From the IMG/VR virus record IMGVR_UViG_3300018080_008188, positions 1-64,000 of that record: a stretch of DNA of 64,000 bases. One strand, written 5' to 3'. The stretch's first letter is position 1. Each line of letters begins with the position of its first letter. A program made the translations under genes and the position numbers. Shown here one piece after another: positions 1,000-20,899 of this stretch. A model generated the notes under the pieces. It saw only the letters and a program-made list of their open reading frames with translations, had not been told where the DNA came from and made no database searches. The stretch comes from a virus.

Positions 1000-3900
1000 A
1001 TGATAGTCAGGCAAGGGGTAAAAGCATCCCATGTTCCAAAAACCGTGAGGGTCATGCCGAAAGTGGCCAGTCTCCTCTCCGAGGAGAGGCGCCAGCAGCT
1101 GGCAGACGATGTGCTGGGCGGTCGCATAAGGGAGGGGCATAGCTATGCCGGTAGTCCTCTTGTGCGCGGAGGGGCGGCAGAGCCCCCGCCTCAGCCGATG
1201 GACCGCGGGATCGTGCGCGGCACATGGGCGGCCCCATACGACCCGTATCCCGCAAGAAGCAGAAAATCGGACATGGGATCATTGGCAGCCGTGGCGCACA
1301 GCCCGTCGTACAAGAAGGCGCAGCTGGAGAAGACCGCCGCCACCACGGCGACCTCTGGCGGAAGAACGACTTCAGCCGGAGCATCCGTCGAGAGGCTGGC
1401 GCCGGAAGTGTATTCCCCGCTGTTCACGATGGCGAACCTCAACCTGCCGCGAGACAGGATCACGGTGAACGCCTGGCTTAGGAACTTTTACGATTTGCAT
1501 CCGATCGTGCGCAACGCCATCACGCTTCACGCCACATACCCGATCAGCAAGTTGACTGTTAAGTGCGCGAACCATGATGTCGAGAACTTCTTCAACGACA
1601 TGGCCGAGGAGATGGACCTTCTTGGCGTGCTGTCCCAAGTCGCCTTGGAATACTGGAAAATGGGCGAGTGCGTGCCTGGAAATTCAATGATCACTACTAA
1701 GAACGGTGATAAGCGGGCTGTTGATATACAGGTTGGCGATCTTGTTTTGACACATGAGGGAAGGTTTAGGAAAGTTGCCCAGAGACTTGTAAATTGGAAG
1801 CACAGCGAAGTGATCGGTATCAGAGCACGTTGTTTTCCAGAAGTCATGGAGGTATCTGGGAACCATCCGATCATGGCAGTAAATATGGCCGGGAAAACGG
1901 GTTATATGAAAAGATGCGTCGTCAAAAATGGGGTTGTCACATATGTCAAGGACTTGGATAAGGGACGTCGGTGGACTGCTGCTGAAAATCTCAGCAAGGG
2001 AGATCTTCTTGTAATTCCTGTAAACAGGGATGTTGAAGACAACAGTCGCATGACAGCACAATGGTGCCGCATGCTTGGTCTTTGGCTGGCGGAAGGGTCT
2101 TTTGGAAAAAATACGGATGGAGAGGTTAAACACCCGATTATAAGCAATTACAATGACAACCTATGGCGCGACTATGAGAGCGTATTTGACAAATGTGGAA
2201 TGCGCTTGGTAAAATCCAAAACCAACGGAAATGGCGCTCTAAGGTCCAAAGCCGCTGGTCGCTGGAAAACCGCCGAAGAAGCAAGGTTTCTGTATAAGAA
2301 TGCAGGTCAATATTCTGGCGGAAAGATTTTGTCTCGTGCCGTGATGCTTCTTCCTCCAAAAAAACAACTTGAGATTATTGCCGGTTTTGTAGACGGTGAT
2401 GGGTGGATACATCGCGGAGCAATTGAAATGGGAACCGTATCAAGAAATCTTGCGATACAATTCAGGCAAATACTTGCGCGCAATTGGATTCTGGCCTCTG
2501 TAGGTCTTGATAAAAGGTCTGAACGCCGAGAAGACAGGAAAAACTTGTATACAATATGTATTCCTGGCATGTATGCCAAAAAATTCACTTTGTGCTCGCG
2601 ATTGTCTGGAAAACTTGACCGTCAGAGAAAACTCCATCCGTCAAGACCAAACAGCCTCCCAAGAAACAAGTTTGGAAAAGATGGTCACATTTTGTCGCCC
2701 ATCATATCTGTTGACCGTCGCAGACTATCAAAGGGAGAGCCGCTATTTAATTTTGAAGTTGAGGAAGACAATTCGTATTGTTCTCATGGGTTCGCCGTAC
2801 ACAATTGTTTTCCGTACGCTGAACTGGACGAACATACGGGTAAATGGCGCAAAATCATTATACAAAATCCTGACTACATACACGTCAAGAAAACAGTGGT
2901 ATCAAGCGAGCCCGTGATATCCCTGCGCCCGGACAAGGTCCTACAGCGCATTGTGATGAGCAACAACCCGGCTGACATACAGCTTCGCAAGCAGATACCG
3001 ACCGATGTCCTGTACCATGTGCGCAAGGGGCAGAACATACCGCTGGACAACTTCAACGTGAGCCACCTCAAGCTTCTGTCAAGCCCGTACGATGTGCGTG
3101 GAACCAGCGTGATCGTCAGCGTATTCAAGGACCTGATGCTATACGACAAGCTGCGCGAAGCCAAGTACGCCCAAGCCGACGGTCTGGTCAATCCCATAAC
3201 ACTTGTTAAGGTTGGAGGAACAGCCGAGGGGGAATACCACCCCACTCCTGAGGATATAGAATACTGGAGAAATATCATAGAGGAAGCTCAGTATGACAAA
3301 GACTTCAAGATCATTACGCATGCCGGAATGGCAATCGAGCGCGTAGGCGCCTCCGGTTCCGTGCTGGAAGTCGGGAGCGACATAGACCTCATCATCAAGA
3401 ACGTGTTTTGGGGGCTCATGGTTCCGCAGGCTGTCGTCGACTCCGAGAGCGCAGCCTATGCGTCGGCATCGATCGGATTGGAGGTTCTCAGGCAAAGATA
3501 CTTCAACTTCAGGAACATGCTGGCCAAGTGGCTGGTCAACAAGATTTTCGCGCCGATCAGCGAGATTCAGGGTTTCTACGAGTACAAGGACGGTGAGAAG
3601 CGCCTCATCGTCCCCGAGGTGGAGTGGAACCACATGAACCTGTACGACCTGCAGGACTATGTGGCCAACATTTCCAGCCTCGTGACGAGCAAGCAGGCGT
3701 CGCTGCAGACCCTGTATCGCAGCCTGGGTCTCAACTACGAGGAAGAGCGGAAAAAGATGCGCCATGAGATGATCGACAATGTCATCACCCAGCGCGAGGA
3801 GGCTGTGCTTGGCACGCTGCCGCTTACGCACCTGCGCAGCATCGACCCGGAGCAGGAGATCATGGAGCCGCTTCCTGGGGAGGAAGGCATGGCGCCTGTC

Positions 3901-4152
3901 GGGGGAATGGGAGCAATGCCTGGTGGAATGGGCGGAGAGATGGGCGGAATGCCCGGAGGCATGCCCGGAGGTCTTGGCGGGGGAGGCGGAATGGGTCCTC
4001 TCGGCATGCCTGAGCTGGGTCCTCCAGGAGCCGGCGGCGAAATGGGCGGTCCGGGAGCTCCCATGGGCGGCGGAGCAACGCCGCCGCTTGGTCCCGGCAC
4101 GCCGGGGGCGGCGCCTATCGAAGGCGGTCCTGGCGGCCTTCCGCCCCTCTAG
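1000..4152 (+). CDS. portal protein precursor containing an intein
   Basis: The precursor has 1050 residues; removing the intein (residues 224-602) leaves a 671-residue portal, a normal size for large tailed phages. The portal forms the dodecameric ring at the unique capsid vertex through which DNA is packaged and ejected. The call rests on the C-terminal extein, which has the helical pattern of portals (around QAVVDSESAAYASASIG), and on position at the head of a cluster with protease-scaffold and capsid genes. Residues from about 957 to the end are a low-complexity Gly/Met/Pro tail. The start is the ATG after AAAGGAAGG, four bases past the previous stop. The intein is more AT-rich than the exteins. 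Portal identity is by pattern and context, not by search. Confidence 0.85.
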   Translation: MIVRQGVKASHVPKTVRVMPKVASLLSEERRQQLADDVLGGRIREGHSYAGSPLVRGGAAEPPPQPMDRGIVRGTWAAPYDPYPARSRKSDMGSLAAVAHSPSYKKAQLEKTAATTATSGGRTTSAGASVERLAPEVYSPLFTMANLNLPRDRITVNAWLRNFYDLHPIVRNAITLHATYPISKLTVKCANHDVENFFNDMAEEMDLLGVLSQVALEYWKMGECVPGNSMITTKNGDKRAVDIQVGDLVLTHEGRFRKVAQRLVNWKHSEVIGIRARCFPEVMEVSGNHPIMAVNMAGKTGYMKRCVVKNGVVTYVKDLDKGRRWTAAENLSKGDLLVIPVNRDVEDNSRMTAQWCRMLGLWLAEGSFGKNTDGEVKHPIISNYNDNLWRDYESVFDKCGMRLVKSKTNGNGALRSKAAGRWKTAEEARFLYKNAGQYSGGKILSRAVMLLPPKKQLEIIAGFVDGDGWIHRGAIEMGTVSRNLAIQFRQILARNWILASVGLDKRSERREDRKNLYTICIPGMYAKKFTLCSRLSGKLDRQRKLHPSRPNSLPRNKFGKDGHILSPIISVDRRRLSKGEPLFNFEVEEDNSYCSHGFAVHNCFPYAELDEHTGKWRKIIIQNPDYIHVKKTVVSSEPVISLRPDKVLQRIVMSNNPADIQLRKQIPTDVLYHVRKGQNIPLDNFNVSHLKLLSSPYDVRGTSVIVSVFKDLMLYDKLREAKYAQADGLVNPITLVKVGGTAEGEYHPTPEDIEYWRNIIEEAQYDKDFKIITHAGMAIERVGASGSVLEVGSDIDLIIKNVFWGLMVPQAVVDSESAAYASASIGLEVLRQRYFNFRNMLAKWLVNKIFAPISEIQGFYEYKDGEKRLIVPEVEWNHMNLYDLQDYVANISSLVTSKQASLQTLYRSLGLNYEEERKKMRHEMIDNVITQREEAVLGTLPLTHLRSIDPEQEIMEPLPGEEGMAPVGGMGAMPGGMGGEMGGMPGGMPGGLGGGGGMGPLGMPELGPPGAGGEMGGPGAPMGGGATPPLGPGTPGAAPIEGGPGGLPPL
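1669..2805 (+). mobile_element. intein with LAGLIDADG homing endonuclease, inserted in the portal
   Basis: This 379-residue element self-splices from the portal. It starts with Cys224 (CVPGNSMI, block A). Block B is GNHPIM with His289. The two dodecapeptide motifs are LGLWLAEG (359-366) and GFVDGDGW (462-469), whose acidic residues are the expected catalytic pair. Block F/G is FNFEVEEDNSY leading to GFAVHN, followed by the +1 residue Cys603. All splicing residues (Cys1, block B His, His-Asn, Cys+1) are present, so it should be active. The interval is visibly more AT-rich than the flanks, which fits recent arrival by homing. Boundaries follow from the motif rules: Cys224 codon at 1669-1671, last Asn codon at 2803-2805. 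Confidence 0.93.
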
Positions 4153-4164
4153 GAAAGGTGAGAA

Positions 4165-4587
4165 ATGGAAAAGTCTGACCTGCTGTTCAAGTCTGCCTGC
4201 CAAAAATGGCATGCAAGGTTTGGAAAGAGCATAAAAGAATCCAACGCTGAAGACGCAGGCGTCATGCGGAAGCATGTAGAGAGGCAGATAAATGCGTGGA
4301 TAGTTGAAAAGCGAAAAATCTCAAAAGAAATAACGGAGCTTGAGCGAATGCTTGCCGACGCCAAAAAAAAGCACTATTCGGCCAGGCTCAGAGCTTCAAT
4401 GCTTGAGCAGCTGTACATTTTCATGAAGCGCGGCGAAAGAGTCATCAGGGACGACATTAGGCGCTTAGCAGACAAGAAAACTGCCGAAGGGGTCGGGGAA
4501 AAAGGGACCAAAGTCGAAGGGGATGTTTTCGCTGCAAAAGAAGACAAAAAGAGCAAATTTTCCGGAGGGGAAAATGACAACGAATAA
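4165..4587 (+). CDS. small coiled-coil protein of unknown function
   Basis: This is an unrecognised 140-residue, highly charged protein. Residues about 30-85 look like a continuous amphipathic helix or coiled coil, with dense Lys, Glu and Arg, and the C-terminus is Lys/Glu-rich and probably disordered. The start follows AGGAAAGGTGAG twelve bases after the portal stop. The last 14 bases overlap the next gene, which points to translational coupling. Its place right after the portal would suit a head accessory or internal protein, but nothing in the sequence shows a specific role. Confidence 0.7.
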   Translation: MEKSDLLFKSACQKWHARFGKSIKESNAEDAGVMRKHVERQINAWIVEKRKISKEITELERMLADAKKKHYSARLRASMLEQLYIFMKRGERVIRDDIRRLADKKTAEGVGEKGTKVEGDVFAAKEDKKSKFSGGENDNE

Positions 4588-6169
4588 AAAGCTGATGCTG
4601 GCAAAGCTGGCTTCCATGTCGCATTTTCTGGACGACGCTGGTTTGTATGCGGACGCTGACATCATCGATGCGACTATTAAGCGCATTGCAAGCAAACCTG
4701 GCAATCTGGAAATGCTGAAGGAGGCCGGATTTTGGCGCAACATCATGAAGCGAATTTCAGGAAGAGCCAGGCGCATCCTCGAAAAGAGTTATCGCAACAT
4801 GTACAGCCGCGCTTTGGAATCGCAGAAGCAGATGGAAGTCGGTCTTCAGAGCATGTTGGAAAAGGCTAAAGAACTAAGGAAACCGCTCAAATTGTACGAC
4901 ATCGGCGGATGGCAGCGTGGCGTGGCATCTGTCCTAACCGGGGTCAACATTCCGAATTTCGTTGCGTATCACGATTTCCAGCAGGCCTTTAACACCTACC
5001 AGAAGGAAATGAGCCAGCAGCTCACCGGCGGTGAGATAGGCGACATTGGTGGGGAAGGCATTCAGCCGGTTCCGGAATTCGGCGAGGAGCCTGCGGCACC
5101 CGCTTCGGAAGGGGAGTCTGCCGGTCCCCAAGAGCTTCCGGGAGCCGAGTTTCTCAGAAGGCGTGAAAGAGAGGAGGGGGATGTGCCCGTACAGCAGCCT
5201 TATTTGCGCCAGCTGTGGGAGGAGTCCGAAAGGCCCGTGTCTTCGCTTCCGGTTCAGGAAGAGCACAAGCCCCCTTTCGCGGGCGGGGACGAGCCTGAAG
5301 AAGCGGGCGAACTGCCAAAATTGCCTGATGAACTTCCAGGTCCTGGAGAAGCGCCTGAGGTTGCCAAGGAACTTCCTGAGAAGGAGCCGGAAGCGGCACC
5401 CGAGCCTCAAGCTGAGCTGAAAACTACTCCCGGTGAGCCTGCGGCAGAACCTGAAGCCGCAGAGGTTGCTTGGGAAGAAGAGCCTGAAGTTCCGGAGGCG
5501 CCGGAAGAAGCCAGCATGACCGAAGAAGAGAAAGATGCTGCCGAGCCGGAAGTGCCCGAGGAAGCTACCGACGAGGAAGGCGAGGAGGTTAGGGAGGAAC
5601 AGTGGACGGAGCGGGTTTTCAGCGGAGTTAAAAAGAGTTCGCGCAAGATACCTGTGGAAGTGTCGTCCGACGGCACCAAGATGCGTATGCCTTTTAAAGA
5701 CTACAAGAGGTTCGTCATGGGCATCAATGCCGATAGCCTCCCCGAAGCCGCCAGAAAGGCCGCCGGCAAAAACCGGCCGTTTCGCGAGACCGCGGATGGA
5801 ATAGTTCCCAACTGGGGCACTGCTCCGGACCAGCTAATAATGTTTATGGGTCCGGTATATTGGGACTCCAAGGTCGTCGACAACTACATAGTTATGAGCA
5901 GGACAGACAAGCCGCTTGACTGGGAGCAGGCGCCGGAGAGGCAGAGGGCGTTGTTCAGCCGGCATCTTGAGGAGCTTGAGAAGGCAAAGCGCGAAGCTGC
6001 GAAAAGAAAGGCCAGGATCATGCGAATCGCCGCGGACTATGAAGAAGCCGAAGGGGAAGACGACGGGGACCAGGAGAATCCAATCGACGCGCTTTCGGAA
6101 GCCGCCCGCGAGCTTCTTGGACAAAGCTCTGTGCGCATGACCGATATCGTTAGGATAGCGCGTTCGTAG
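4574..6169 (+). CDS. virion-cluster protein with N-terminal helical-hairpin module and acidic repeat region
   Basis: This 531-residue protein starts at 4574, not at the in-frame upstream codon 4523, because GGAGGGG lies just before this ATG. Residues 8-39 hold a helical hairpin (LASMSHFLDDAGLYADADII) that recurs in at least eight other genes of this cluster. The middle, about residues 160-345, is a Pro/Glu/Ala low-complexity region, very acidic and probably disordered. A folded part follows (about 350-480, with MGPVYWDSKVVDNYIV), then a Lys/Glu helix and a terminus resembling hairpin flanks (DIVRIARS). No enzyme motif is visible. The acidic middle and position suggest an internal head or scaffold-associated protein; this is inference. 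Confidence 0.75.
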   Translation: MTTNKKLMLAKLASMSHFLDDAGLYADADIIDATIKRIASKPGNLEMLKEAGFWRNIMKRISGRARRILEKSYRNMYSRALESQKQMEVGLQSMLEKAKELRKPLKLYDIGGWQRGVASVLTGVNIPNFVAYHDFQQAFNTYQKEMSQQLTGGEIGDIGGEGIQPVPEFGEEPAAPASEGESAGPQELPGAEFLRRREREEGDVPVQQPYLRQLWEESERPVSSLPVQEEHKPPFAGGDEPEEAGELPKLPDELPGPGEAPEVAKELPEKEPEAAPEPQAELKTTPGEPAAEPEAAEVAWEEEPEVPEAPEEASMTEEEKDAAEPEVPEEATDEEGEEVREEQWTERVFSGVKKSSRKIPVEVSSDGTKMRMPFKDYKRFVMGINADSLPEAARKAAGKNRPFRETADGIVPNWGTAPDQLIMFMGPVYWDSKVVDNYIVMSRTDKPLDWEQAPERQRALFSRHLEELEKAKREAAKRKARIMRIAADYEEAEGEDDGDQENPIDALSEAARELLGQSSVRMTDIVRIARS

Positions 6170-6177
6170 GAGGAAGC

Positions 6178-9100
6178 ATGCCCAGCATGGAGCCAGTGGC
6201 GCTTATGCGCCTGACGGAAACAGACGATCCGGACGAGTTGCTTAAAGAATGCGACAGGGACGACCTTGTGGTGGAGCACAAGCTGGACGGATGGAAGACC
6301 CAGATTGTCAAGAAAGACGGCAAGGTCTCGATCTATAGCAGGCGCGGGCAGGAAGTGACGGAGAATTTTCCCGAAATAGCCAAGGCTCTCTCAGGAATGC
6401 CGGACGGCACGCACATTGAGGGCGAGCTTGTCTACTGGAACGGAGGTAAGCAGGAGATAGGAAAAATGACCTCCTTGGCAAACAGTTCCGCCGAAAAATC
6501 GAGAAGCATGGCAAAGAGTCTTCCCGGGACTGTCAAATTCCATGCTTATGACATCATCAGAAAAGGCGGAAGCGATGTTTCGGGAAAGCCGTTTTCGGAG
6601 CGTAGGAAGATGCTGGAAAGCGCTGTCAGAAAGTCGGAAAAGATCAAGATTACAGAACAGTATCCCTTCTCATCATGGCAGGACGAGACAAAAAGAGCCG
6701 TCAAATCGGGCGGCGAAGGAATCGTGATCAAGCTCAAGAGTGCCACATATCATTGGAAGCCGTCGGGGGAGAGGGAGCCAAAGCCTTCCGGAACCATGTG
6801 GAAGTACAAGGGCGGCGGAGGAAAAAGCGATTCTGACGACTTTGTCGTGTACGACATGTCGATAGGAGAAAAGGGGAAAGCCAAAGCTAAGTTCGGTCAG
6901 TACTACAAGGATAAGCTGTACCACATCAGCGAAATCAGCAACTTGTCCGCAGAAGACGAAAAGAAGTTCAGGAAAAAGCTGAACAATGGACCATTCGTTA
7001 TAGAGATAGGGTTTCAGGAACGCGTCCCCAAGGGCTTGCGGCATCAGAAGTTTCTCAGGTTCCGGGACGACAAGGGCACCAAGGATGCCACGATGGGCGA
7101 ATTCCACGCCAAGCACATAGGCAAAATGAAGCTGGCAAAAGAGGCTATGCGCTTTGCAAGGCTTATTGCCTTGGCATCCGGGTCTGCCAAAATCATGCCG
7201 TTTTCGCGCAGTTGCCGCAAAAGCCTGGAGTGCGGGGACAAAAGCGTTACGCACAGGAGGGGTGATGAGCTTGGCAAATACGAAAGCGGCCAAGTGTGGG
7301 AAGCCGGATCGTACGGCGGAAAACGCTGGGGCATCATGCTTCGCGTTGCCAATGTGGAAAGAAAAAAGTGCGGAGAGGTCAAGAGTAAAGAAATGGATCC
7401 AGACGGAGATGTGGACATTGTGTCTTTCAAAGCGATAATTGACAAGGAGGCGTTTTTAAAGGGTCTCAAGATTCCTAGCTATCAGGAGCTTGTCGACCAT
7501 CTGAAAAGCCTCATCACCAGCCGAAAGAGTCCGTCCGAGCCGCCGACCGTACAGCCGGGTTTGGCGCTTGAAAGGCATGTGCCATCCGGATCGACAAAAG
7601 CCAATGCGCTTACGGCCGTTCCGGAGATCGATGTGCGGAAAGCCTATAATGTGATTGCTGGTCTTGAAAGCAGAGGCAAGTTTGTTGTCGGCGATTCCGG
7701 CACTTCTTTCGGAACCGTGCAGGTACAGCTGGGGAGCTTCGTGCGCCAGCTGATGAAAGACAGGCATCTGGAAGAGGCTTCCGGTCTTAGCAGGGACGAG
7801 CTTGCCAACATAGCCGCGTCGTGGCGCGAGGCATACAGCAAGCTCAGAAAAGCGGGCAGGAAGATCTGGAAGCCCGGATATGTGCGCGTGGACGAGAGCG
7901 CCGTTCGCGAAACTATGAAAAACAAGCGCAAGGTTTCGCGATGGGGAGGAAAGCTGGTGGTGCGCCACAGCCCCCAGAACATGCCGGGCATAGTCGTCAA
8001 GCGAAATGGAAGGTTTGTGGGGCTTGTCCTGGACCTAGACTATCTCAGAAATGAAATCGGCTTGAATGTCAACAGGTACATGGACAGGCTGTATCTCATA
8101 ACCGGACAGTACATAACTTCGGCCGTCGTTCGCAATTCCATAGCCAGGCTGCTCGTGGAGCAGAAGACGGGCGGAGCCTTCAGTAAATTCAGCAAGACAT
8201 TCACATCCAGGAATGTCAACGGCAATGCCAGCCTGCGCGCGCTTGCGGACAGGGCTTCCCAGCGCAACTTTTCCGCTCGCGCAAGGAGCGTCATGCAGGC
8301 CATACGGGAGTCCGGATACGATGTGGGAAATCCGCAGGCGTTCAACGCGTACCAGCTGCTGGCCATATCGAATGCGAGCGGCGTCGGCCGCGTCAGGGAT
8401 TTTCTCATGAACTGCCGCCTGTTCACCAGTGCGAATCTATATTATCTGAAGCGCGGAAATATCGCGCTGACGCGCGCGGGAATACCGTCCAGAATGCCTC
8501 CGCGCGGCGGAATTGCTGGCTTTCCGACTGAAAAGCTGAAAAAATGCCGAATTTCGGCTGCTGAAAAGCTGTCTGGAATTGTGGCGACGGCGGCAGAAAT
8601 GACAGAGCCCATTCCGGGATCAGGCATTGCCGGAGCTGTCAAGTACATCATAAGCCGCTATTTCGAAATGAGGGAAATTCCCCGGTACGAAATGCAGTTC
8701 GGACCTGTCGCGGCAATGTTTCCTCTGCCGAATCAAAGGCTCCTGAAAGTGGTGCTCAAAGGAAACATCGACATAAGCGAGGTCAGAGGGCTTCTTCCGG
8801 ACAAAATGGGCGGCTTCGACATCGAGTACATTGAAGGTCCGAAAAGAAAGTACGAGCCGAGCCCGAGCGCCGAATATGAGGTTCCCGCCGAACGCGAGTT
8901 CGAACGCGAGCAGGCGACGCCGGCAGATGTCGTGTCGCTGCTTCCGCTTCAGATGATGTCCAGATATATCCACCTTCTTGGCGCAGTAAAGAAACAGCTC
9001 GACGAAGAGGGCAAAAGCGTTTCTGACAGGGACCTCAAGGCAACGGTTCTCATGCATGTCGCGGACGAGCATGGGATGTCAAAGGAAGACCTGGAGGGAA

Positions 9101-10404
9101 TGGTGGGCACAAGCGTTGGGGAGTTTGCGGCAAGGGCTTTCTGCGAGTCGCCCCCGATGTACAAGCGCGCATCTGCCACGCTGGCATTTCCTGGTCAGTT
9201 TGCGGAGGATGTCAAGTCAGGCAAGCGAAACTTTACGATACGGCCTGGAGACATGCCGTTTCGCCCGGAAGAGGTTGTCACTGCCGTAACATATTCTGGC
9301 GCAAAGCTGTGCCGAATACGCATTCTTTCCAAAGAGAAGATGAGCCTGAACCGCATTGAGAAGGCGTTTGGATCAAGATGCGCCAAGGCGCTCGAAAGAA
9401 GGTTTGGGCCAAATAGAAGGTTTGTCGTCATACGGTTCGAGCGGTTCGATATGAACGAGGCGGACGATAGCGGGGACGACAGCAGGAAGGCGTCCGAGGT
9501 GCTAATAGACGGAGCCAAAACTCTTACGCGAAGCCAGATACAGAAACACTATTCCAAGCCGGCCGTCAGAAAGTCAATCATGTCCCGCATCAAGGGAAAA
9601 CCGGTTCTTGTGTACATAGGTGTGGGAAAAAACAACAAAGTCCTCAAGCGCAATCACGACGGAAAAGAAATTGTGATAACCGGCGACGACCAGTCCGGAG
9701 ACGAAAATCCTTCAAACTACTGGTACTGGGTGAAGAGGCGCGTTCTTTCCTTTCATGAAGTTTTCGGCACCAAGACAGACCTGGGCTTTGTGGACCTGGA
9801 TTTACACGGCGGATATCCGATCAAGAAGGCCAAGGAATATGCCAGGAAGCTCGTCCCTGAAATTCGGAAGAGGTTCGGCGCCGAAGCGACAATCTACGAA
9901 AGCGGCGGGACCGGGCTGCATGTGGAGTTTCGGCTCGGGGAGAAGACGTCCACCGATAAGCTGCGCAAGGACCTGCGCAGCATGCTTGACGACCTCAATG
10001 AGAATTTTGAGGGCGCTACGACGGGCGTCGTCAAGGATAGAGGAATGCGGACGGACGTCAGCACTCTGCACAACAAGGGCAGCATCAGGGTTCCGGGGTC
10101 CCTTGGGGAAACGCAGGGAAAAGTGAAAAAAAAGATTTCGTCTTCAAAAGATGTGGACGACAACTATGGAAATCTCGGTTACGGACAAAAGCATATTTCG
10201 GACGGACCGGAAGCGTCCGGAAGGGAAGGAGCCTTTTCTCCGCGCCCTCCGTCGTCCGTGGGCGAGCATGGCGGAGGGGGCTGGAACGCTTCGGACGACG
10301 GCGGTCCGCGATGGTATGAATCGGATGGCGATGCCGTAGGGGCCTTCTCTTCTAGGATAGACATGTTTAGAAAAGCCGGAGACGCTTGCGATGAGGATGA
10401 ATAG
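6178..10404 (+). CDS. multidomain protein: ATP-dependent DNA ligase, transglycosylase-like, ASCH and primase (AEP) domains
   Basis: The product has 1408 residues. The ligase domain (1-320) has motif I EHKLDGW with nucleophile Lys35, motif III EGELV (81-85), motif IV GEGIVIK (Glu180) and motif V WKYKG (208-212), then an OB-like part. Around 485-560 an E-S-x-G pattern (Glu497) followed by DSGTSFGTVQ resembles lytic transglycosylases; this is tentative. Residues about 995-1090 look like an ASCH domain (SGKRNFTIRPGD). The end (about 1180-1330) resembles the LigD/archaeo-eukaryotic primase fold: DLD at 1206-1208, SGGTGLH (1242-1248) and Asp1293 before a RVPGSL motif. The start follows AGGAGG. In bacterial LigD the ligase and polymerase act in end joining; here they are fused in another order beside head genes. 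I see no Ku gene in the window. Confidence 0.88.
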   Translation: MPSMEPVALMRLTETDDPDELLKECDRDDLVVEHKLDGWKTQIVKKDGKVSIYSRRGQEVTENFPEIAKALSGMPDGTHIEGELVYWNGGKQEIGKMTSLANSSAEKSRSMAKSLPGTVKFHAYDIIRKGGSDVSGKPFSERRKMLESAVRKSEKIKITEQYPFSSWQDETKRAVKSGGEGIVIKLKSATYHWKPSGEREPKPSGTMWKYKGGGGKSDSDDFVVYDMSIGEKGKAKAKFGQYYKDKLYHISEISNLSAEDEKKFRKKLNNGPFVIEIGFQERVPKGLRHQKFLRFRDDKGTKDATMGEFHAKHIGKMKLAKEAMRFARLIALASGSAKIMPFSRSCRKSLECGDKSVTHRRGDELGKYESGQVWEAGSYGGKRWGIMLRVANVERKKCGEVKSKEMDPDGDVDIVSFKAIIDKEAFLKGLKIPSYQELVDHLKSLITSRKSPSEPPTVQPGLALERHVPSGSTKANALTAVPEIDVRKAYNVIAGLESRGKFVVGDSGTSFGTVQVQLGSFVRQLMKDRHLEEASGLSRDELANIAASWREAYSKLRKAGRKIWKPGYVRVDESAVRETMKNKRKVSRWGGKLVVRHSPQNMPGIVVKRNGRFVGLVLDLDYLRNEIGLNVNRYMDRLYLITGQYITSAVVRNSIARLLVEQKTGGAFSKFSKTFTSRNVNGNASLRALADRASQRNFSARARSVMQAIRESGYDVGNPQAFNAYQLLAISNASGVGRVRDFLMNCRLFTSANLYYLKRGNIALTRAGIPSRMPPRGGIAGFPTEKLKKCRISAAEKLSGIVATAAEMTEPIPGSGIAGAVKYIISRYFEMREIPRYEMQFGPVAAMFPLPNQRLLKVVLKGNIDISEVRGLLPDKMGGFDIEYIEGPKRKYEPSPSAEYEVPAEREFEREQATPADVVSLLPLQMMSRYIHLLGAVKKQLDEEGKSVSDRDLKATVLMHVADEHGMSKEDLEGMVGTSVGEFAARAFCESPPMYKRASATLAFPGQFAEDVKSGKRNFTIRPGDMPFRPEEVVTAVTYSGAKLCRIRILSKEKMSLNRIEKAFGSRCAKALERRFGPNRRFVVIRFERFDMNEADDSGDDSRKASEVLIDGAKTLTRSQIQKHYSKPAVRKSIMSRIKGKPVLVYIGVGKNNKVLKRNHDGKEIVITGDDQSGDENPSNYWYWVKRRVLSFHEVFGTKTDLGFVDLDLHGGYPIKKAKEYARKLVPEIRKRFGAEATIYESGGTGLHVEFRLGEKTSTDKLRKDLRSMLDDLNENFEGATTGVVKDRGMRTDVSTLHNKGSIRVPGSLGETQGKVKKKISSSKDVDDNYGNLGYGQKHISDGPEASGREGAFSPRPPSSVGEHGGGGWNASDDGGPRWYESDGDAVGAFSSRIDMFRKAGDACDEDE

Positions 10405-13093
10405 CGCGGAAGACATCCGCAGAGAAATCAGGACAAGAATCAGGGAAAAGATAGGGGAAATGAAACTGCGCGCGCTATGGCGCGTCGGAAGCCTTGTGTC
10501 TTTTGCCCAGTACGACGAGGACGAGGAAGGGAACAGTATTTTTGATGCCGGGCAAGAGGGGGAAGAGGAGGAAGAAGAGGACCTTGCCGCGAAATGGCTT
10601 CTGGAAAAGGAGGAGAAGCTGCGCAAGGAGCAGGAAAAGCCAAGGGTCCCTGTAGCTCAGGCTCCCGGGAAACTATGGGCGACTCCGGAATACGAATCTG
10701 ACAGGTTCGGGCGCGTTTCGTTTTCGCTGCCTCCGGCAAGCGGCATGTGGCCGGAAGATCCCGGTTCTTCGCCTGCCGGGTTCCCGCTCGGAGAGGAGGA
10801 TGTAGCCAGCAGGCAGGCTCTCACGCAGGCATTCCAGAAGCCTGAAACATGGAACGGTCTTGCGGAGGCGTCCAGAGATCCTAGGCTTGCTCCGGCGTTC
10901 CAGTCATGGCTTGTTCCGAAAGTCATCCTGCTGGTCGGAAAGAAATGGTGGAACGATTTCAAGCACCAGAGGCAGCTCAAGATGTCTCCGTTCGGCTTGT
11001 TCGATTCCGACTACTACAGAAGCAACCGAGACAGGCTGGACAAGAGTGCCCACGGCCGCGCCTGGATCGCTCTCGTACAGCAGGAGGTGGCGCGCATACT
11101 CGCGAAGTATCTCTCATCCAAGGGTCCTGGAAAAAACGAAAACATACACGGATACATATACACATCGCTCCATCGCAAAATGGCCGAGCTTGCAGGCGCG
11201 AATCAGGGATACAAAATGAAGATGGTAGGCGTGTGCGGATACTGCAAATTCAAAAGGCCTCTCATAACCCCTCCGGAGCTGGAGCTTGATAGGGAAACGG
11301 GCTTGTACAAATGCCCGGTATGCGAACAGTCGATCGAAAACAACGAGGAGGAGGTCGGCATCAAGCAGGAAGAGCTGGAAAACGCTGAGCAGCAGAAGGA
11401 GTGGCTGGAGGGTCAGATACAGGTTGTACAAAACCTTGTTGCCGCAGGCGAGGACGAACAGGAGCTTTTGGAGCGCCATGTGCAAAACCTGCGAAAAGTC
11501 CAAGAAAACATCCCGAAGCTGCGCCAGGAAGTGGAGGCGGAACGGGCCGACTTGTCGGCCAGGAAGCGGTTTCTTGCCATTCCGTACGTGCATGTCGGAT
11601 GCGCCAACGAGGACTGTCCGGTAGGCAGAGTTCCCCTTACATCGGTTGACTGGAGCAGTCCGTACTGGAGCGAGCCGGAAGGTAAAATGGCGCGCGCGTT
11701 CCTTTCCGACCGCTACAACATAGTGGAGCCGGGATGGGAGAGAAGCCGGGCGCAGCGCGCGGAAGACCATTGGGATGAGCTTTCCAAGCGCTCCAGGTAT
11801 TCGGCTCCGCCAGACGAGATGCTAAATGTTCCGTTCATATGCCCGTACGACGGCACGCGGTTCACCCCGGCAGAAGCCAAGGGCAGGGGTCCAATGGCAG
11901 CAAACTCTGGCTACCGGGTCGGCGGGATGATAATCCCTCCGCCGCTGTCAAGAAGATGGGTCACCGACCTTCAGAAGCATCCCGGCACTCAGGTAGGCGA
12001 AGAGGATGTTGGCCCGTCCTACCATATAGAGGATGTGAGGGAGCTGACTGGAGCGGAAGTCGACCTCAGCGCAAGCAAGGCGCATGAAAGATTCACATCG
12101 CAAATGGAGTTTCGCAAAAGGTTCGACTGGATGCGCGACATCCTAGAGGAGAAGCGCGACGACTACAGGGAAAAGATAAGGGACGAAGCCGGGAGCCTGA
12201 AGGCCAGCAAAGGCTCCAAGGCCAGAATGTATGTCCTGCGGGAAGACCTGTACGAATTTCTTTTGGATTGGTCGTCCAACAGCCCGATCCATTTTGTCGG
12301 ATGGGTTTGCGAAAGGGCTCCGCGCACCAGGAAGGTTATGGAGCAGCACGGGTTCAATGAAGACGGAACGCCCAACATGGAGTTTAAAAGCAATACGGAA
12401 TACCACGCCATGAGCAAAGAGGCTGCCGAGCAGGTGAATTCAATGATCCTGCAGGGATGGATGAAAAAAGTGATGGAGCGGCATCCGGCGGATTGGCTTG
12501 ATCTGCTTGTCGGGCGCGGAAAATGGGGAAAGGGAGTTTCGTCGTGGCTGACGACGGAGCACCAAGACGGAGTTCCTCCCGTGGCGTATTTCATCTCTCC
12601 CGTAGAGCAGCGCGGAAGCGACCTGTCTTTCGCTCCATGTATGCTGCGCTACACGAAGGCGAAAAAAGTCGTGCGCAAGGGTGAAGGCGGCGAAAGTGTC
12701 GCTGAATGGGTGGCGTACGGCAAAAAAACGCCCTTGGGAATTCATCAGCGGCACAGCAAAACCTATAAGGGTCAGCCGAGGATTGCCGCAATCATGGGAG
12801 TGTGGGACTATCGCGGGCAGCCGGTTGGGGAAAAGACTACCGGTTTGCCGATTCCCGCAGACCAGGGCGATATGGTGGCCGGCGATCTGAGATCGCTAAG
12901 CCACGCCGTGGCGCAGCCGGATTTCAAGGGCGTGTACCTGCGCAACGACCAGCTGGGCATGGCGGACGGAGACCATGTGCTGGTGAAAGCCGTATTTATG
13001 CCGTGGAGTGGAGGCTGGCTGCCGATGAAAATCATGCACGAAGTGTACAGGGGCGTCAAGGAAACCGCCGACCACGAAGGAATGTCGAAATGA
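10391..13093 (+). CDS. large zinc-ribbon protein of unknown function
   Basis: I do not recognise this 900-residue protein as a whole. Residues 40-80 are acidic low complexity. A zinc ribbon is clear: CGYC at 282-285 pairs with CPVC at 308-311. Further Cys pairs follow near residue 400 (CANEDC) and near 480 (ICPYDG). A Glu/Gln-rich coiled coil lies between, about 315-385. The C-terminal 300 residues look folded, without a motif I can name. It overlaps the ligase-primase gene by 14 bases and the phosphoesterase-topoisomerase gene by 4, so all three are made together. That suggests a partner in the same DNA-handling set, perhaps a DNA-binding component. Identity with any named family is not shown. 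Confidence 0.75.
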   Translation: MRMNSAEDIRREIRTRIREKIGEMKLRALWRVGSLVSFAQYDEDEEGNSIFDAGQEGEEEEEEDLAAKWLLEKEEKLRKEQEKPRVPVAQAPGKLWATPEYESDRFGRVSFSLPPASGMWPEDPGSSPAGFPLGEEDVASRQALTQAFQKPETWNGLAEASRDPRLAPAFQSWLVPKVILLVGKKWWNDFKHQRQLKMSPFGLFDSDYYRSNRDRLDKSAHGRAWIALVQQEVARILAKYLSSKGPGKNENIHGYIYTSLHRKMAELAGANQGYKMKMVGVCGYCKFKRPLITPPELELDRETGLYKCPVCEQSIENNEEEVGIKQEELENAEQQKEWLEGQIQVVQNLVAAGEDEQELLERHVQNLRKVQENIPKLRQEVEAERADLSARKRFLAIPYVHVGCANEDCPVGRVPLTSVDWSSPYWSEPEGKMARAFLSDRYNIVEPGWERSRAQRAEDHWDELSKRSRYSAPPDEMLNVPFICPYDGTRFTPAEAKGRGPMAANSGYRVGGMIIPPPLSRRWVTDLQKHPGTQVGEEDVGPSYHIEDVRELTGAEVDLSASKAHERFTSQMEFRKRFDWMRDILEEKRDDYREKIRDEAGSLKASKGSKARMYVLREDLYEFLLDWSSNSPIHFVGWVCERAPRTRKVMEQHGFNEDGTPNMEFKSNTEYHAMSKEAAEQVNSMILQGWMKKVMERHPADWLDLLVGRGKWGKGVSSWLTTEHQDGVPPVAYFISPVEQRGSDLSFAPCMLRYTKAKKVVRKGEGGESVAEWVAYGKKTPLGIHQRHSKTYKGQPRIAAIMGVWDYRGQPVGEKTTGLPIPADQGDMVAGDLRSLSHAVAQPDFKGVYLRNDQLGMADGDHVLVKAVFMPWSGGWLPMKIMHEVYRGVKETADHEGMSK

Positions 13094-15798
13094 GGCGGCG
13101 TTCATGCGCGGCTTTCGACGAACGCTGCGAGCCGGACATCTTTGCCTTCGCCAAGGACCCGCTTTCCTCGTACAAGTCCAAAAGGGAATTTGGCGATACT
13201 CCGGAGCCTTCAGGCTCCACGGCGGGAAAAAACAAGCACAGGTTCGTCATCCAGAGGCACAAGGCCAAGCGCGCCGGGGAACATTTTGACCTTCGCCTTG
13301 AGAACGACGAAGGCGCGATGACTTCATGGAGCATTCCCAAGCACAGGATGCCCGAAGGAAAGGAGAAGCTCCTGGCAATCAAGACTGAAGACCATCCGCT
13401 TGAGTACCGGACATTCGAGGGCGAGATTCCCAAGGGCGAATACGGAGCTGGAAAAGTGTCTGTCCATGATTCTGGAACCTATGACGAGCTGGAACATTCG
13501 TCATCGAAAATCGTTTTCAAGCTCAAGGGAAAAAAGGAAAAGGGAACCTACAGGATCTTCAAGACCGACGGGAAGCGTTGGATGATCATGGAGCATAATC
13601 CAGGCAGCAAAGCTGACGATGTGGAAAAGGTTGTTATACTTCTTCGCGGTGGCGAAAAGCAGCCCAATATTCAAAATGGCATCTTCTCTGGTGCGAGAGG
13701 CCGGAGTTTCGATGAAAGGCTGAATGGGATGGAAGTTTCCTTTGCGAACGAGCCCGAGTGTACTGGAAGGCTGAGCGGATGGTTCATTGTAACAAAGCCG
13801 CTTTCCAGTCATCCGGGTCTCCGTTTACAGGTTATTCCGGACGATGGCAGGCATTCTATTTTTGCTTCTGTCAACCAACTTCTTCTGCCTGACAATGTGG
13901 AAATTTCTTGGCTTCCTGAATTCGAACCATTTGCCGAGAAAAAGGCATCCGCTTCCAGAATGAAAGCCATTTCCGTCAGGCAGCCTTGGGCTAGTCTCAT
14001 AGCGGACGGAGGAAAAACCATTGAGACGCGCACATGGGGAACGAAATACCGCGGTCCGCTACTCATAGTGTCTTCCGCCAAGCCAAAAATAGAGCCGGCC
14101 GGCTTTGCGCTTGCCATAGCCGATCTTGTCGACTGCCGGCCGATGACGCCTGAAGACGAGAGCCGCGCCATGTGCGAATCATATCCGTCAGCCAATTCGT
14201 GGGTGCTTGACAACATCAGAAAGATAGAGCCCTTCAGAGTCAGGGGGGCTCTTGGCTTGTACGATGTTGAAATGCCTAAAAATCCTCTGTTCGTGCGCAA
14301 TGCCAAGTACATAGACAAAATCAAGCAGGACAGCGGCAACATAACATATGTGTACAGCGACAAGCATATCGAAAAGAGGAACATCGACAAGGCGAAGAGG
14401 CTCAGGCGACTGAACAAGACCATGTCCAAGCTGCGCAGCCAGGTGCGCAAGGATCTCGCAAGCGACGACAAGCAGCTGCGCAACACGGCCCTTGCCGTGG
14501 CAGTCATCGACGAGACATATTCGCGCGTGGGTAATAGGAATTCGGCCGACGAGATGCAGCATTACGGGCTTACGACATGGATGGTCAAGCATGTGTCTTC
14601 CGGTTCCGATGGCATGCATATAAGATATGTCGGAAAGACTGGCGTCAAGCAGGACCGCAAGGTGACGGGAAAGCCCGCCAAGCTCATCAGGGATTTGTGC
14701 AAGGGCAAAAAGAAGAACGACACCCTGTTTGCGGGCGAGGGATACAGCGTCACGCCCAAGGCGATCAACGCATATCTGAGCCAGTTCGGCGTTTCAGCCA
14801 AGGACATTCGCGGACTGCATGCAAATTCCGAAATGGTCAGGGCGCTTAAGAAGGAGCGCAAGGGAAAACTGCCGTCCGACGAGGGCGAGAAAAAGAAGAA
14901 GCTCAAGGAAGAGTTCAACAAGGCGCTTGAGTCTGCCGCAGACAGGGTGGGGCACCAGGCGGGCACATTGCGAAGGCAGTATCTCATTCCATCGCTCGAG
15001 CCAGACTACCTGGGGGACGGCAAAATAGGCTCATTTGCGCTTGATGCGGAAGACGACCCACCGCTTTCCGCCAAGGCGGACTGGAAACGCAAACCATATT
15101 GGTTTGAACCATACGAAGAACCGAATGCGGCATCCTTCCGGGAAGTCAGCCACAAACTACAGCCGGGTCAAGGTACTTTTCTGAAGCCAAAAAGCGAAGA
15201 GGAACTTCTGCGCGAACAGGGTTTCATGGATGTTCGGCAAAAAGAGGAACATCGGTCGGACATAAAGCATCAGCCCGATGTTGAAAAGCAAAAACGGGAG
15301 CAGGAGCAGACCATGTCCGTTCCGCGCTTCGCAGACAGATTTGGTCTACAAGATGTGGAAAACCTCATGAGCAGACTTGGAGGCCAGGATATCGTGACCA
15401 CAAAGAGGAAGTCAGGCGGATTTAAAGCATTATGTAGGTTTCCATATGTCCATGGCGGCGCAAAATATCTTGTTGTTTCGGTAATAGCCGGACCGGACAC
15501 CTATTCAACGCCAGGCGGTGCCAGCGACCTTTATTCCGAAGTTGAGGTGTCGTTGTTGGACAGCAACGGAATGCGCGGCTTTCTGCCTGGCTTAAAAAAG
15601 CACTACGGTATTCCGTATAGTTATGAAGGCGTATATGTTGCACTCAACACCCAGCAGGTAAGGGACATGATGTACGCCATAGCAAACAATGAAGACCTTG
15701 GCGGCATCAGGAAGATTAGGCTTGATGAGGATATCGACGAAGAAGATTCAAACTATGGCGACGACGGGCTGCCGCTGTCCGCGCACATGGAAGCCTGA
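13090..15798 (+). CDS. multidomain protein: LigD-type 3'-phosphoesterase, ASCH domain and type IB topoisomerase
   Basis: This 902-residue protein starts at the ATG overlapping the previous stop. Residues 50-165 match the LigD 3'-phosphoesterase, which trims 3' ends: RH at 56-57, HFDLRLE (65-71) and DHPLEY with His102, then FEGEIPKGEYGAGKV. Residues 291-395 are an ASCH domain (ISVRQPWASLI). Residues about 400-640 are a poxvirus/bacterial type IB topoisomerase: YSRVGN, YGLTT, YVGKTG, AKDIRGLHAN, VGH ending at His622, and RRQY with catalytic Tyr631. All expected catalytic positions appear present. The last 250 residues are unassigned. Topoisomerase IB relaxes DNA by transient 3' linkage; the phosphoesterase could clean ends. 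Together with the upstream ligase-primase it forms a split LigD-like set. Confidence 0.88.
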   Translation: MRRRSCAAFDERCEPDIFAFAKDPLSSYKSKREFGDTPEPSGSTAGKNKHRFVIQRHKAKRAGEHFDLRLENDEGAMTSWSIPKHRMPEGKEKLLAIKTEDHPLEYRTFEGEIPKGEYGAGKVSVHDSGTYDELEHSSSKIVFKLKGKKEKGTYRIFKTDGKRWMIMEHNPGSKADDVEKVVILLRGGEKQPNIQNGIFSGARGRSFDERLNGMEVSFANEPECTGRLSGWFIVTKPLSSHPGLRLQVIPDDGRHSIFASVNQLLLPDNVEISWLPEFEPFAEKKASASRMKAISVRQPWASLIADGGKTIETRTWGTKYRGPLLIVSSAKPKIEPAGFALAIADLVDCRPMTPEDESRAMCESYPSANSWVLDNIRKIEPFRVRGALGLYDVEMPKNPLFVRNAKYIDKIKQDSGNITYVYSDKHIEKRNIDKAKRLRRLNKTMSKLRSQVRKDLASDDKQLRNTALAVAVIDETYSRVGNRNSADEMQHYGLTTWMVKHVSSGSDGMHIRYVGKTGVKQDRKVTGKPAKLIRDLCKGKKKNDTLFAGEGYSVTPKAINAYLSQFGVSAKDIRGLHANSEMVRALKKERKGKLPSDEGEKKKKLKEEFNKALESAADRVGHQAGTLRRQYLIPSLEPDYLGDGKIGSFALDAEDDPPLSAKADWKRKPYWFEPYEEPNAASFREVSHKLQPGQGTFLKPKSEEELLREQGFMDVRQKEEHRSDIKHQPDVEKQKREQEQTMSVPRFADRFGLQDVENLMSRLGGQDIVTTKRKSGGFKALCRFPYVHGGAKYLVVSVIAGPDTYSTPGGASDLYSEVEVSLLDSNGMRGFLPGLKKHYGIPYSYEGVYVALNTQQVRDMMYAIANNEDLGGIRKIRLDEDIDEEDSNYGDDGLPLSAHMEA

Positions 15799-16141: not shown

Positions 16142-16822
16142 ATGCTTATCAAGCTAGCGCGCATTGTGAAGCGCAAGGGAAAATGGTGCGTTATCGGCCA
16201 CAAGAAGGGCAAGGGCGGCAAGCACAAGGTTTTTGGCTGCTACAACAGCAAGGAAAAAGCCAAGAAGCGCCTTGGTCAAATATATTTCTTCAAGAGCCAT
16301 GGTGCTTTGGACAGGCTGCTTGAAGCCGCAGACGAGATGGACAGCAGGGGAATGCTTCATCTTGCGGACGCTGTCGAAGCATGCGTGGAAACCGTTGTGT
16401 CCATGGGGCTTGACGACGGAAATCCGGCGTCGGTGAGAATCGGGAAGATCGTATCCTTGCTTGAGAAAAGGGGCGAGCACGATCTTGCCGAAAAGGTGGA
16501 TGCCGCGGTGCCGGACATCATAGACGTCGAATCTGGAAGGGAGTGCGGAGAGTGCCCGGACATGGAGGTTTTCGCCATGTCGCGGCGCATTGGCGGATCT
16601 TTCGTAAGGACGGCTGACAGAATGTACAAGACGGCCATTGAACTGCGGCGCATATGGAACGAAGGTGCGGTGGGCGATGACAGCTTCGAGCACAGGAAAA
16701 TGCGCGAGTTGCGCTGCGTGCTGAAGACGGGGTTTCTCGCCCCGCCGCCGCCGGGCTGCAAGGTGCCGAAGGGGTTTGTAAGCTGGTGGGACTATTTCAA
16801 CAAGGCAGGGGACAAGGAATGA
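16142..16822 (+). CDS. virion-cluster protein with two helical-hairpin modules
   Basis: The product has 226 residues. The N-terminus (about 1-50) is very basic, with GKWCVIGHKKGKGGKHK and a segment spaced like a small nucleic-acid-binding domain. Two copies of the recurrent hairpin follow: LLEAADEMDSRGMLHLADAV (residues about 58-80) and IVSLLEKRGEHDLAEKVDAA (about 102-121). A Cys pair (CGEC) sits near residue 138. A short Pro-rich loop (APPPPGCKVPKGF) near the C-terminus recalls a motif frequent in small phage proteins. It overlaps the next gene by four bases. No enzymatic residues are visible. The shared modules suggest a common assembly or packaging partner with its neighbours. Confidence 0.7.
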   Translation: MLIKLARIVKRKGKWCVIGHKKGKGGKHKVFGCYNSKEKAKKRLGQIYFFKSHGALDRLLEAADEMDSRGMLHLADAVEACVETVVSMGLDDGNPASVRIGKIVSLLEKRGEHDLAEKVDAAVPDIIDVESGRECGECPDMEVFAMSRRIGGSFVRTADRMYKTAIELRRIWNEGAVGDDSFEHRKMRELRCVLKTGFLAPPPPGCKVPKGFVSWWDYFNKAGDKE

Positions 16823-17439
16823 AACCAGAAGAGAAAGCCAGGGTGATTGAGGCGGACCTGCACAACCGCCTTGCCGATGCGGCTACGGCTGTTAGAGACG
16901 CCGTGCGCTTGCTCGCCGAAGCCGGCATGAGCCGGCAGAATGCAGAGCGGTCGATTATGGAGCTGCTTGAAGACGAGGTGTCGTTCGGAAAGGAGTCCGA
17001 AGAGGTGGGCGAGCTTGCGCGCATGGCAGAGCAGCTTGACTGCGACGGCCACTTCGAGGCGGCGGACGCCATGGATCGCCTGATGTACAAGAAGACGGCT
17101 GCCATCGAGCGCATGCGCAAAATGGCGGAATCCGCAGCGCTCGGAGAGTTCGGCGTTTCCGAAGACGACCAGGAGACCTACGATGTCGTAGCCGACAGCA
17201 TCCACAACATGCGCGGGGTCGACATCAGGGCGCTTGCGGGAATGTCCGAGGAGCTGAGGGGCGCGCTTTCGGGCATGACGGCTGACATGATGCGGCTGCT
17301 GGACAAGGTCCTGCAGCACAGCGGATCCGAGACCAAGGTTGGGTCGGTCGTCTCCAAGCTCGAGGAATACTACAAGTGGTGCTTTGCCAAAATTGCCGCT
17401 GCATCCAAGATTTCCGTGGGACCGTCGGAAGAGGAATAG
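16819..17439 (+). CDS. helical protein with hairpin module
   Basis: This 206-residue, almost entirely helical protein starts at the ATG preceded by GGGGACAAGGA and overlapping the previous stop by four bases. Residues about 62-92 hold the shared hairpin (LARMAEQLDCDGHFEAADAM) followed by KKTA. The rest is amphipathic helix without catalytic motifs or membrane segments. Like its neighbours it seems to belong to a family of internal head proteins built around the hairpin. Function is unknown. Confidence 0.7.
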   Translation: MKPEEKARVIEADLHNRLADAATAVRDAVRLLAEAGMSRQNAERSIMELLEDEVSFGKESEEVGELARMAEQLDCDGHFEAADAMDRLMYKKTAAIERMRKMAESAALGEFGVSEDDQETYDVVADSIHNMRGVDIRALAGMSEELRGALSGMTADMMRLLDKVLQHSGSETKVGSVVSKLEEYYKWCFAKIAAASKISVGPSEEE

Positions 17440-17440
17440 C

Positions 17441-18568
17441 ATGAGCCTTGAAGGCCGGCTTGAGGCATTGCGTCCCGAGCTTGCTCGCGCGGCACAGAAA
17501 GTAGTCGACGAATGGCAGCAGGACGAGGAGGGGATCGACGAGGTTTTCGGCGGCGGCGGCGCGTGCGACGAAGTTTCGCGCGCCATGGTTGAAGTGGTGT
17601 ACGACCGCCTTAAGGGCGTCGATGCGACATACGGGTCCCAGCCTGGGAACGATCATGAATGGATCGTGGCATACGACGGCAGCGAAGCATGCGTTGTGGA
17701 CATACCCCCGGGCGTCTATGAAGTTGGCGGCGGGTATTCATGGAAGAAAATCGAAGGAGCCGAGATATCGCCCGGCGACATTGTGATAGAGCGCATCGAG
17801 GCGGACTTGGTCCGGGACTTGTTCAGCGAGGGAATGAAAATGAAAAAGACTCTGATTGCTCTTGCAGAGGAGCTTGAAAGACAGGGAGAGGAGAACAGCG
17901 GCCTTCTTGCGCGTGCGCTTGCCGGGGCAACAGAGGTCAATGTCGGTGCTGGGAGTGTTCCTGGCGTCGTTGATGCGGGTGGCAGAAAGAACACTTCCAA
18001 ACAGGCAAAGGGACCTTCGACATACGGAGAGCTTAGTCAGGAAGACCAGCAGTTTGTACACAGCATGTCGGAAAATCTCATAAACCTCGGCAAGGATAGG
18101 AAGGAGGCGTGGAAGTATGCTCTAAACTATGTGCTGCGCAAGGCGAAGAGCGAGCAGGCAAAGAAGGCTCCCAAGCCGGCGGCTAGCGGAACCTTGGCGG
18201 ACCAGAAGCTAGTATGGGAGTTCCCGCCCCCGGAAGTGATGAGGGACATGTACGGATTCATAGCTTGGGCGCTTCCGCAGGCAGACCCGAAATATACAGA
18301 AATGGGTCGCAAGGGTGAAGTAGCAGCAGCCAGACGGGCGCTATACACAATGCTGAAGGTCAAGGGACCGAAGGTCGCCAAGATCATACAGGCAAAATAC
18401 AACAGGGCGCAGATGGAAGGTGATCGCAGGGAGATGAGCAGGCTGCGTCGCTGGTGGAAAGCGCTGACGGGCGTATGGCACATGTCCCAGAACCTGATGC
18501 GCCAGCTGAACGAATACGAGAAGTCGCCCGGCTACACGGCTGCTCCGGGCTACGGGGAGACTGAATAG
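17441..18568 (+). CDS. putative cysteine-hydrolase-like protein with hairpin module
   Basis: This 375-residue protein starts one base after the previous stop, with GAGGA upstream. Residues 36-100 form a compact domain with GGACDEVS-type, DHEWIVAYD and VDIPPGVYEVGGGY motifs. Cys42, His72 and Asp87 occur in the order of a papain-like triad. I have the impression of a conserved small domain seen in bacterial and phage proteins but cannot name it. Residues about 133-165 carry the shared hairpin (LIALAEELERQGEENSGLLA). The C-terminal half (190-375) is helical and basic. The hydrolase idea rests only on the order of the three residues and needs structural comparison. Confidence 0.65.
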   Translation: MSLEGRLEALRPELARAAQKVVDEWQQDEEGIDEVFGGGGACDEVSRAMVEVVYDRLKGVDATYGSQPGNDHEWIVAYDGSEACVVDIPPGVYEVGGGYSWKKIEGAEISPGDIVIERIEADLVRDLFSEGMKMKKTLIALAEELERQGEENSGLLARALAGATEVNVGAGSVPGVVDAGGRKNTSKQAKGPSTYGELSQEDQQFVHSMSENLINLGKDRKEAWKYALNYVLRKAKSEQAKKAPKPAASGTLADQKLVWEFPPPEVMRDMYGFIAWALPQADPKYTEMGRKGEVAAARRALYTMLKVKGPKVAKIIQAKYNRAQMEGDRREMSRLRRWWKALTGVWHMSQNLMRQLNEYEKSPGYTAAPGYGETE

Positions 18569-18572
18569 TTCC

Positions 18573-20321: not shown

Positions 20322-20899
20322 CGGACAACATTGCGCCCCCGCTTGTCAGGCTTGCAAACGAGCTGGATGCTGCGGGAATGCCGGAGGAGGCCGATCGCGT
20401 AGATGCCATTCTGCGCCATGCGGCTTTGTGGGACAGGATTGGTAGAGCGCTGCGCCGGAAATACGACCGGCTGCGCACGCTGTTCGAGAAAAGCCGTTCA
20501 AAAACGGACGATGAAAAAAGGGAATACAGTGCCCCTGCGGGTAAGAGGCTGGACGACATGCTGCGCAAAAGGCTTGCCGGACCTGCCGAAAAGAGGCTTT
20601 ATGTATGGTTTTGTAACAGGTATGCCTCGTCGTGCGGACCGTGTAGGGCGAGACATGGCAGGATGCGCACGCTGGAGCAATGGCGCGCGAACGGGATGCC
20701 CGGACCGGGCGTGTGCGAAAAAGCAAAGTGCTCGTGCTCCCTGATCGGCATCGGACCCGGAGGAACGGTTCAGCAAACCGCTTCCGATCAGGACATTGCG
20801 GCGAATTCCATCGGCTTGCGGGACGACGGAAAGCTCGAAAACATGAACCAAGGGTTTTCTCTTGAGCCGTTCTTCAGCAATTACGGAGACATACAATAA
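20318..20899 (+). CDS. minor head (Mu gpF/SPP1 gp7-like) protein with hairpin module
   Basis: This is a 193-residue protein. Residues about 8-36 are a clean copy of the shared hairpin (LVRLANELDAAGMPEEADRV). The C-terminal half has a Cys-rich unit: CGPC, then RHGRMRTLEQW, then GMPGPGVCEKAKCSCSL. That order (CxxC, a G/RTLxxW stretch, PG, and a closing Cys cluster) is typical of the end of phage head morphogenesis proteins of the Mu gpF/SPP1 gp7 type, which sit inside the head near the portal. The protein is shorter than full family members, so it may be only the C-terminal domain joined to the local hairpin. It ends the block before candidate promoter copy 2. Confidence 0.65.
   Translation: MTDNIAPPLVRLANELDAAGMPEEADRVDAILRHAALWDRIGRALRRKYDRLRTLFEKSRSKTDDEKREYSAPAGKRLDDMLRKRLAGPAEKRLYVWFCNRYASSCGPCRARHGRMRTLEQWRANGMPGPGVCEKAKCSCSLIGIGPGGTVQQTASDQDIAANSIGLRDDGKLENMNQGFSLEPFFSNYGDIQ

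Follow-up and report, generated by a model that had tools for sequence, protein, structure and literature searches.

A predicted DNA repair set and a type IB topoisomerase encoded among the head genes of large phages, possibly delivered with the genome

Introduction

Polyvalent proteins of phages and conjugative elements are large proteins that join unrelated enzyme domains and are encoded among virion genes. It has been argued that polyvalent proteins encoded near virion genes are packaged and injected (PMC5512222). Bacterial LigD combines ligase (LIG), primase-polymerase (POL) and 3'-phosphoesterase (PE) activities. In mycobacteria, LigC with Prim-PolC, which are host repair proteins, fills short gaps and seals nicks in excision repair (PMC5663958), so such a set can work without end bridging. 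Among phages, the mycobacteriophages Omega and Corndog express Ku and use host LigD for infection (Pitcher 2006, as cited in PMC7719229), while a published search of about 3,000 actinobacteriophages for NHEJ components found none (PMC7719229). Finally, type IB topoisomerases (TopIB) are encoded by a few jumbo phages, such as Motura, RSL1, Lu11 and PaBG (PMC7824862).

Here we analysed a stretch of 64,000 nucleotides (hereafter, the window), which is the first part of the 134,081-bp virus record IMGVR_UViG_3300018080_008188. The original prediction, made from the sequence alone, was that ligase, primase-like and 3'-phosphoesterase motifs of the LigD type are split over two proteins in another order, with a TopIB and two ASCH domains added, and that these proteins, being encoded between portal and capsid, may be packaged and injected to seal or circularise incoming DNA. 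We confirmed the observation, whereas its interpretation is only partly supported.

Results

Gene content of the locus

Three overlapping plus-strand genes lie between a portal gene (1000-4152, plus strand; PHROG portal, 1.2e-50) and an ORF containing a prohead protease (22733-26803, plus strand; PHROG head maturation protease, 4.7e-11). Thus, the proposed location between portal and capsid holds as a location between portal and prohead protease. The portal gene is interrupted by a LAGLIDADG intein, and portal genes of the relatives are also interrupted, at one or two places (contigs L102:1072-5358, L106:1137-5345, L107:1111-4116 and L108:1127-5383). After the portal comes an acidic protein (4523-6169, plus strand), for which jackhmmer found matches in the relatives L023, L102 and L105-L109; it is conserved next to the portal, and a scaffold role is a guess from its position and composition.

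The first of the three genes, p1 (6178-10404, 1408 aa), encodes LIG, a mid domain, an ASCH domain and a predicted POL. The second, p2 (10391-13093, 900 aa), lies between the two enzyme-bearing proteins. The third, p3, ends at 15798 and most likely starts at ATG 13090, in an ATGA overlap with the p2 stop, giving 902 aa; it encodes PE, a second ASCH domain, TopIB and an unassigned C-terminal part. The catalytic residues named in the original prediction were right: Lys35 of p1 is the lysine of the ligase KLDG motif, and Tyr631 of p3 is correct if the protein starts at 13090 (it is Tyr727 in the frame from 12802). Downstream, a small protein (16142-16822, plus strand) is conserved after PE in the relatives, and a related segment is fused to TopIB in the contig L014.

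A short helical motif (like LARMAEQLDCDGHFEAADAMD) recurs in at least four and perhaps six proteins of the head region (4523-6169, 16142-16822, 16786-17439 and 20318-20899; weaker in 34692-35912 and 29123-29665) and was not seen elsewhere in the record. It might mark proteins that enter the capsid; we considered such a capsid-targeting role, but p1-p3 lack the motif. The same region contains a protein (18573-20321) with a weak match to "Swiss Army Knife" phosphatase domains (PF22784, 9e-5, below cut-off). Further along, an ORF at 37924-39528 has five homing-endonuclease-associated HNH repeats in a low-GC stretch (44% against about 55% around it). Elsewhere in the same record, at L003:14326-15762 and L004:2294-4333, we found a tubulin/FtsZ-family GTPase and a PrkA-type AAA kinase.

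Domain assignment

LIG (6178-7167, plus strand), an ATP-dependent DNA ligase nucleotidyltransferase plus OB-type region, is unambiguous as an ATP-dependent ligase (Pfam DNA_ligase_A_M, 9.6e-29, over cut-off). However, it is nearest to archaeal and Lig1 enzymes (PDB 2cfm, 5.3e-28), with the LigD ligase domain weaker (1vs0, 1.1e-8), and it misses the LigD and NHEJ-ligase equivalog cut-offs (TIGR02779, 74.8 of 227.75 bits; TIGR02776, 69 of 373.2 bits). The ligase is therefore not of the LigD/NHEJ-ligase type by these criteria.

PE (13252-13560, plus strand) is unambiguous and clearly of the LigD family: Pfam LigD_N matched at 1.8e-27 (96.1 bits, cut-off 31.1), the best PDB match was 3p43 at 4.9e-34, and NCBIfam TIGR02777 gave 141.2 bits, just under its cut-off of 144. 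The metal triad His, His, Asp (residues named in PMC8656161) is conserved, apart from a two-residue loop insertion shared by the phage clade.

TopIB (catalytic domain at 14302-15111, plus strand; Tyr codon at 14980) is also unambiguous (Pfam Topoisom_I, 7.8e-28, over cut-off). Indeed, the catalytic pentad R, K, R, H, Y is invariant in 11 of 11 sequences and aligns to the solved TopIBs 2f4q and 2h7f. Both ASCH domains (9184-9441 and 13969-14157, plus strand) passed the Pfam cut-off, with 3.2e-4 and 7.8e-7, respectively.

The predicted POL (9478-10107, plus strand) carries VDLD, SGGTGLH and a third conserved motif, STLHNKGSIRVPGS. Its Pfam match (LigD_Prim-Pol, 0.0015) is below cut-off, and a comparison with PDB sequences gave nothing usable. 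A Foldseek search with the predicted core of the region returned LigD-POL and Prim-PolC structures as its top 15 PDB hits (best E 6.9e-5, prob 1.00), although the confidence of the model is modest (mean pLDDT 60; about 75-93 in most of residues 111-200).

The mid domain of p1 (7618-8607, plus strand) is conserved in seven phages and carries a lysozyme-like motif, LESRGKFVVGDSGTSFGTVQV. We evaluated the lysozyme reading by structure prediction with two fold searches (no PDB or BFVD fold match), by Pfam (no match) and by a profile comparison with the L023 counterpart, and it was not confirmed; thus, we do not count this domain as a peptidoglycan hydrolase. Lastly, p2 gave no family, phage or PDB match, but it has conserved CxxC pairs (zinc-ribbon-like), with invariant Cys columns in five phages.

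Conservation of the repair set

Searches of viral contigs with the single window proteins found nothing, and profiles were needed. A profile scan with the POL found five contigs besides that of L102, up to 340 kb. All seven phages, the window included, have portal, scaffold-like gene, LIG, mid domain, ASCH and POL in that order, and PE follows in the five that reach that far. In L102 (8099-17635), one ORF of 3178 aa holds LIG, mid, ASCH, POL, DJ-1/PfpI, p2-like and PE, and an intein with a LAGLIDADG endonuclease interrupts PE one residue before its HFDLRLE motif. L106 (2851 aa) and L107 (1362 aa, without the p2 part) are also single ORFs, while L108 is split after POL and adds a 2'-5' RNA ligase-type (2H) domain. 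In L106, a protein with five DUF4379 treble-clef zinc-finger repeats (17946-19388) lies between the PE-bearing ORF and TopIB. The domains of the window are collinear with these single-ORF versions, so the split in another order noted originally is a lineage-specific gene fission or fusion.

The enzyme domains are far better conserved than p2: LIG is 57-63% identical in six relatives, POL 63-68% and PE 59-75%, against 23-34% for p2. We infer that this pattern fits selection for the enzyme activities. Nevertheless, a 340-kb contig with LIG, POL and PE has no TopIB, so the two modules are separable. PE was found only in the window's record among 11 records and in none of 12 further TopIB records (a run without positive control). 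A tblastn search with PE found no match in 50,697 phage records, and no relative of the POL was found in cellular genomes.

A search for Ku elsewhere in the genome had been proposed beforehand as a check: no Ku was found in 18 records, i.e., the window's record and 17 others, although many are fragments and a host Ku cannot be excluded. No NAD ligase was found in the window's record or in six relatives. The ligase in p1 is the only ATP-dependent ligase found in the window's record, and TopIB occurs once; other ligases occur elsewhere in a few of the records.

A wider clade of phage TopIB

Starting from the TopIB domain, we reached the 485-kb uncultured phage LR745208 and then 136 viral contigs encoding relatives, 80 of which were kept. 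After de-replication, 69 IMG/VR and LR745208 sequences remained, with a median ORF length of 1042 aa and a maximum of 3125 aa. Within the fetched stretch, 41 have the portal and 45 the protease, 29 have portal upstream and protease downstream, and in 19 of 69 neither was found; most contigs are incomplete. Conversely, none of the cellular TopIB loci, used as a negative control, gave a portal or protease match. Among the 46 contigs of 100 kb or more, 29 have TopIB near portal or prohead protease, where about 9.4 are expected by chance (P about 8e-11, a rough test that assumes a 40-kb target and independent contigs). A weak portal match in Rhizobium phage RHEph12 (E 0.00098) is probably chance or profile drift.

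In the phylogenetic tree, 31 cellular TopIBs form one group (support 99/94) and 70 non-redundant phage sequences another (98/91), leaving out one long-branch phage row. In cellular genomes, the TopIB search returned mostly cellular enzymes with 22-34% identity, plus two contigs of the phage type in metagenome-assembled genomes.

The fusion partners of this TopIB differ: HAD_SAK_1 (L012, L016), M23 peptidase (L017, L018), PolyA polymerase (L009) and 2'-5' RNA ligase (L009, L023). Across 32 further giant ORFs we found PolyA_pol, 2H, HAD_SAK_1, PAP2, InPase, LPD1 and NUDIX. LPD1 and InPase occur in two each of these 32 TopIB relatives and not in p1-p3 themselves. LPD1 is by its name a polyvalent-protein domain, and InPase and 2H are discussed as such in PMC5512222. 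Peptidoglycan-hydrolase partners are rare, with none of that kind among the 32 further giants. The L023 counterpart of p1 has a Glucosaminidase-like domain just below its cut-off.

Discussion

Taken together, what the sequences show directly is the domains (for POL, with the reservations above), the catalytic residues, the conserved order and the head-cluster location; the enzyme activities, the packaging, the delivery to the host and the target of the set are our inference. With moderate confidence, we consider p1, p2 and p3 to be polyvalent head-cluster proteins of a large-phage lineage that carry a Ku-less DNA repair set. In this view, PE would clean 3' ends, POL would fill gaps or extend ends, LIG would seal nicks and TopIB would relax torsion. 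The proteins would most likely be put into the capsid during assembly and enter the host with the genome, where they would mend nicks, gaps and perhaps ends of the incoming DNA before phage genes are expressed. An NHEJ system is not shown, while the reading that the set works like a LigD/LigC nick, gap and end repair set is supported.

Of the original prediction, a set with the three LigD-type activities, as inferred from sequence and fold, plus TopIB in the head cluster is supported. The packaged-and-injected part gains only indirect support, from the position among head genes, from the M23 peptidase fusion and the Glucosaminidase-like domain in L023, and from the polyvalent-type (LPD1, InPase) and 2H or RNA-repair partners. 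More broadly, it remains a tentative possibility that large phages deliver with their genome a preformed, Ku-independent DNA repair and topology machine, with 3'-end cleaner, gap-filling primase-polymerase, ligase and TopIB on a few giant head proteins, restoring the genome before any phage gene is expressed. If so, some large phages would bring their own repair and DNA-topology enzymes into the cell instead of relying on the host or on newly made proteins. It would also add TopIB as a recurrent core module of polyvalent proteins and the LigD-type 3'-phosphoesterase as a phage-borne enzyme, and it makes testable the question of how very long genomes with nicks or damage are made ready for replication on entry.

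The main rival, which we consider unlikely but not excluded, is proofreading during packaging: the proteins would act in the producing cell at the portal or prohead, mending nicks and gaps and relaxing torsion in concatemeric DNA, and need not enter the next host. The genes lie between portal and prohead protease, and we infer that the activities fit DNA being threaded through a motor. However, this hypothesis does not explain the fusions of the same TopIB to a cell-wall peptidase or RNA-repair domains, nor the Glucosaminidase-like domain in L023.

Less likely still, these could be ordinary replication and repair enzymes that happen to be encoded among head genes and act during replication. 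The presence of a single ATP-dependent ligase, no detected NAD ligase and one TopIB in the window's record could agree with this. On the other hand, the head-cluster position is conserved across many diverged phages, with fusions into giant ORFs and unrelated partner domains. NHEJ or circularisation of the injected genome, as originally proposed, is the least likely: although activities of the three LigD types are predicted and the Omega and Corndog precedent exists, the absence of Ku from the 18 records (many of them fragments) and the Lig1/archaeal-like ligase weaken it, and nick and gap repair, as by LigC with Prim-PolC, does not call for end bridging and fits better.

Comparison with known systems

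The TopIB of jumbo phages such as Motura, RSL1, Lu11 and PaBG is likewise encoded by large phages; these were not matched by the L009 TopIB query at 1e-4, a search in which only LR745208 matched among 50,697 phage records, and the paper describing them does not mention LigD (PMC7824862). Cellular and poxvirus-type TopIBs share the catalytic core and the pentad, but the phage sequences form a separate clade and are often found in giant head-cluster ORFs.

As in mycobacterial LigC with Prim-PolC, a ligase is accompanied by a putative Prim-Pol, and Prim-PolC is among the best fold matches; here PE and TopIB are added and the genes lie in a phage head cluster. With bacterial LigD the locus shares the same three predicted activities, and the predicted POL core has LigD POL/Prim-PolC as its closest folds in a model of modest confidence. 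The differences are the order LIG, POL, PE, spread over up to 3178 aa with other domains or over several genes (p1 and p3 in the window, one ORF in L102, L106 and L107), the ligase nearer Lig1/archaeal enzymes, and the absence of a detected Ku.

The closest concept is that of polyvalent proteins: p1 and p3 likewise join several unrelated enzyme domains in one polypeptide and are encoded in the vicinity of virion genes, and relatives carry LPD1, InPase and 2H domains. In our literature search, limited to open-licence papers, the main text of PMC5512222 does not mention LigD, has "topoisomerase" only in a reference title and "ligase" only three times (the passage shown concerns RNA ligases). What differs from the polyvalent proteins described there is that here TopIB is the recurrent core, and one lineage adds a LigD-like set.
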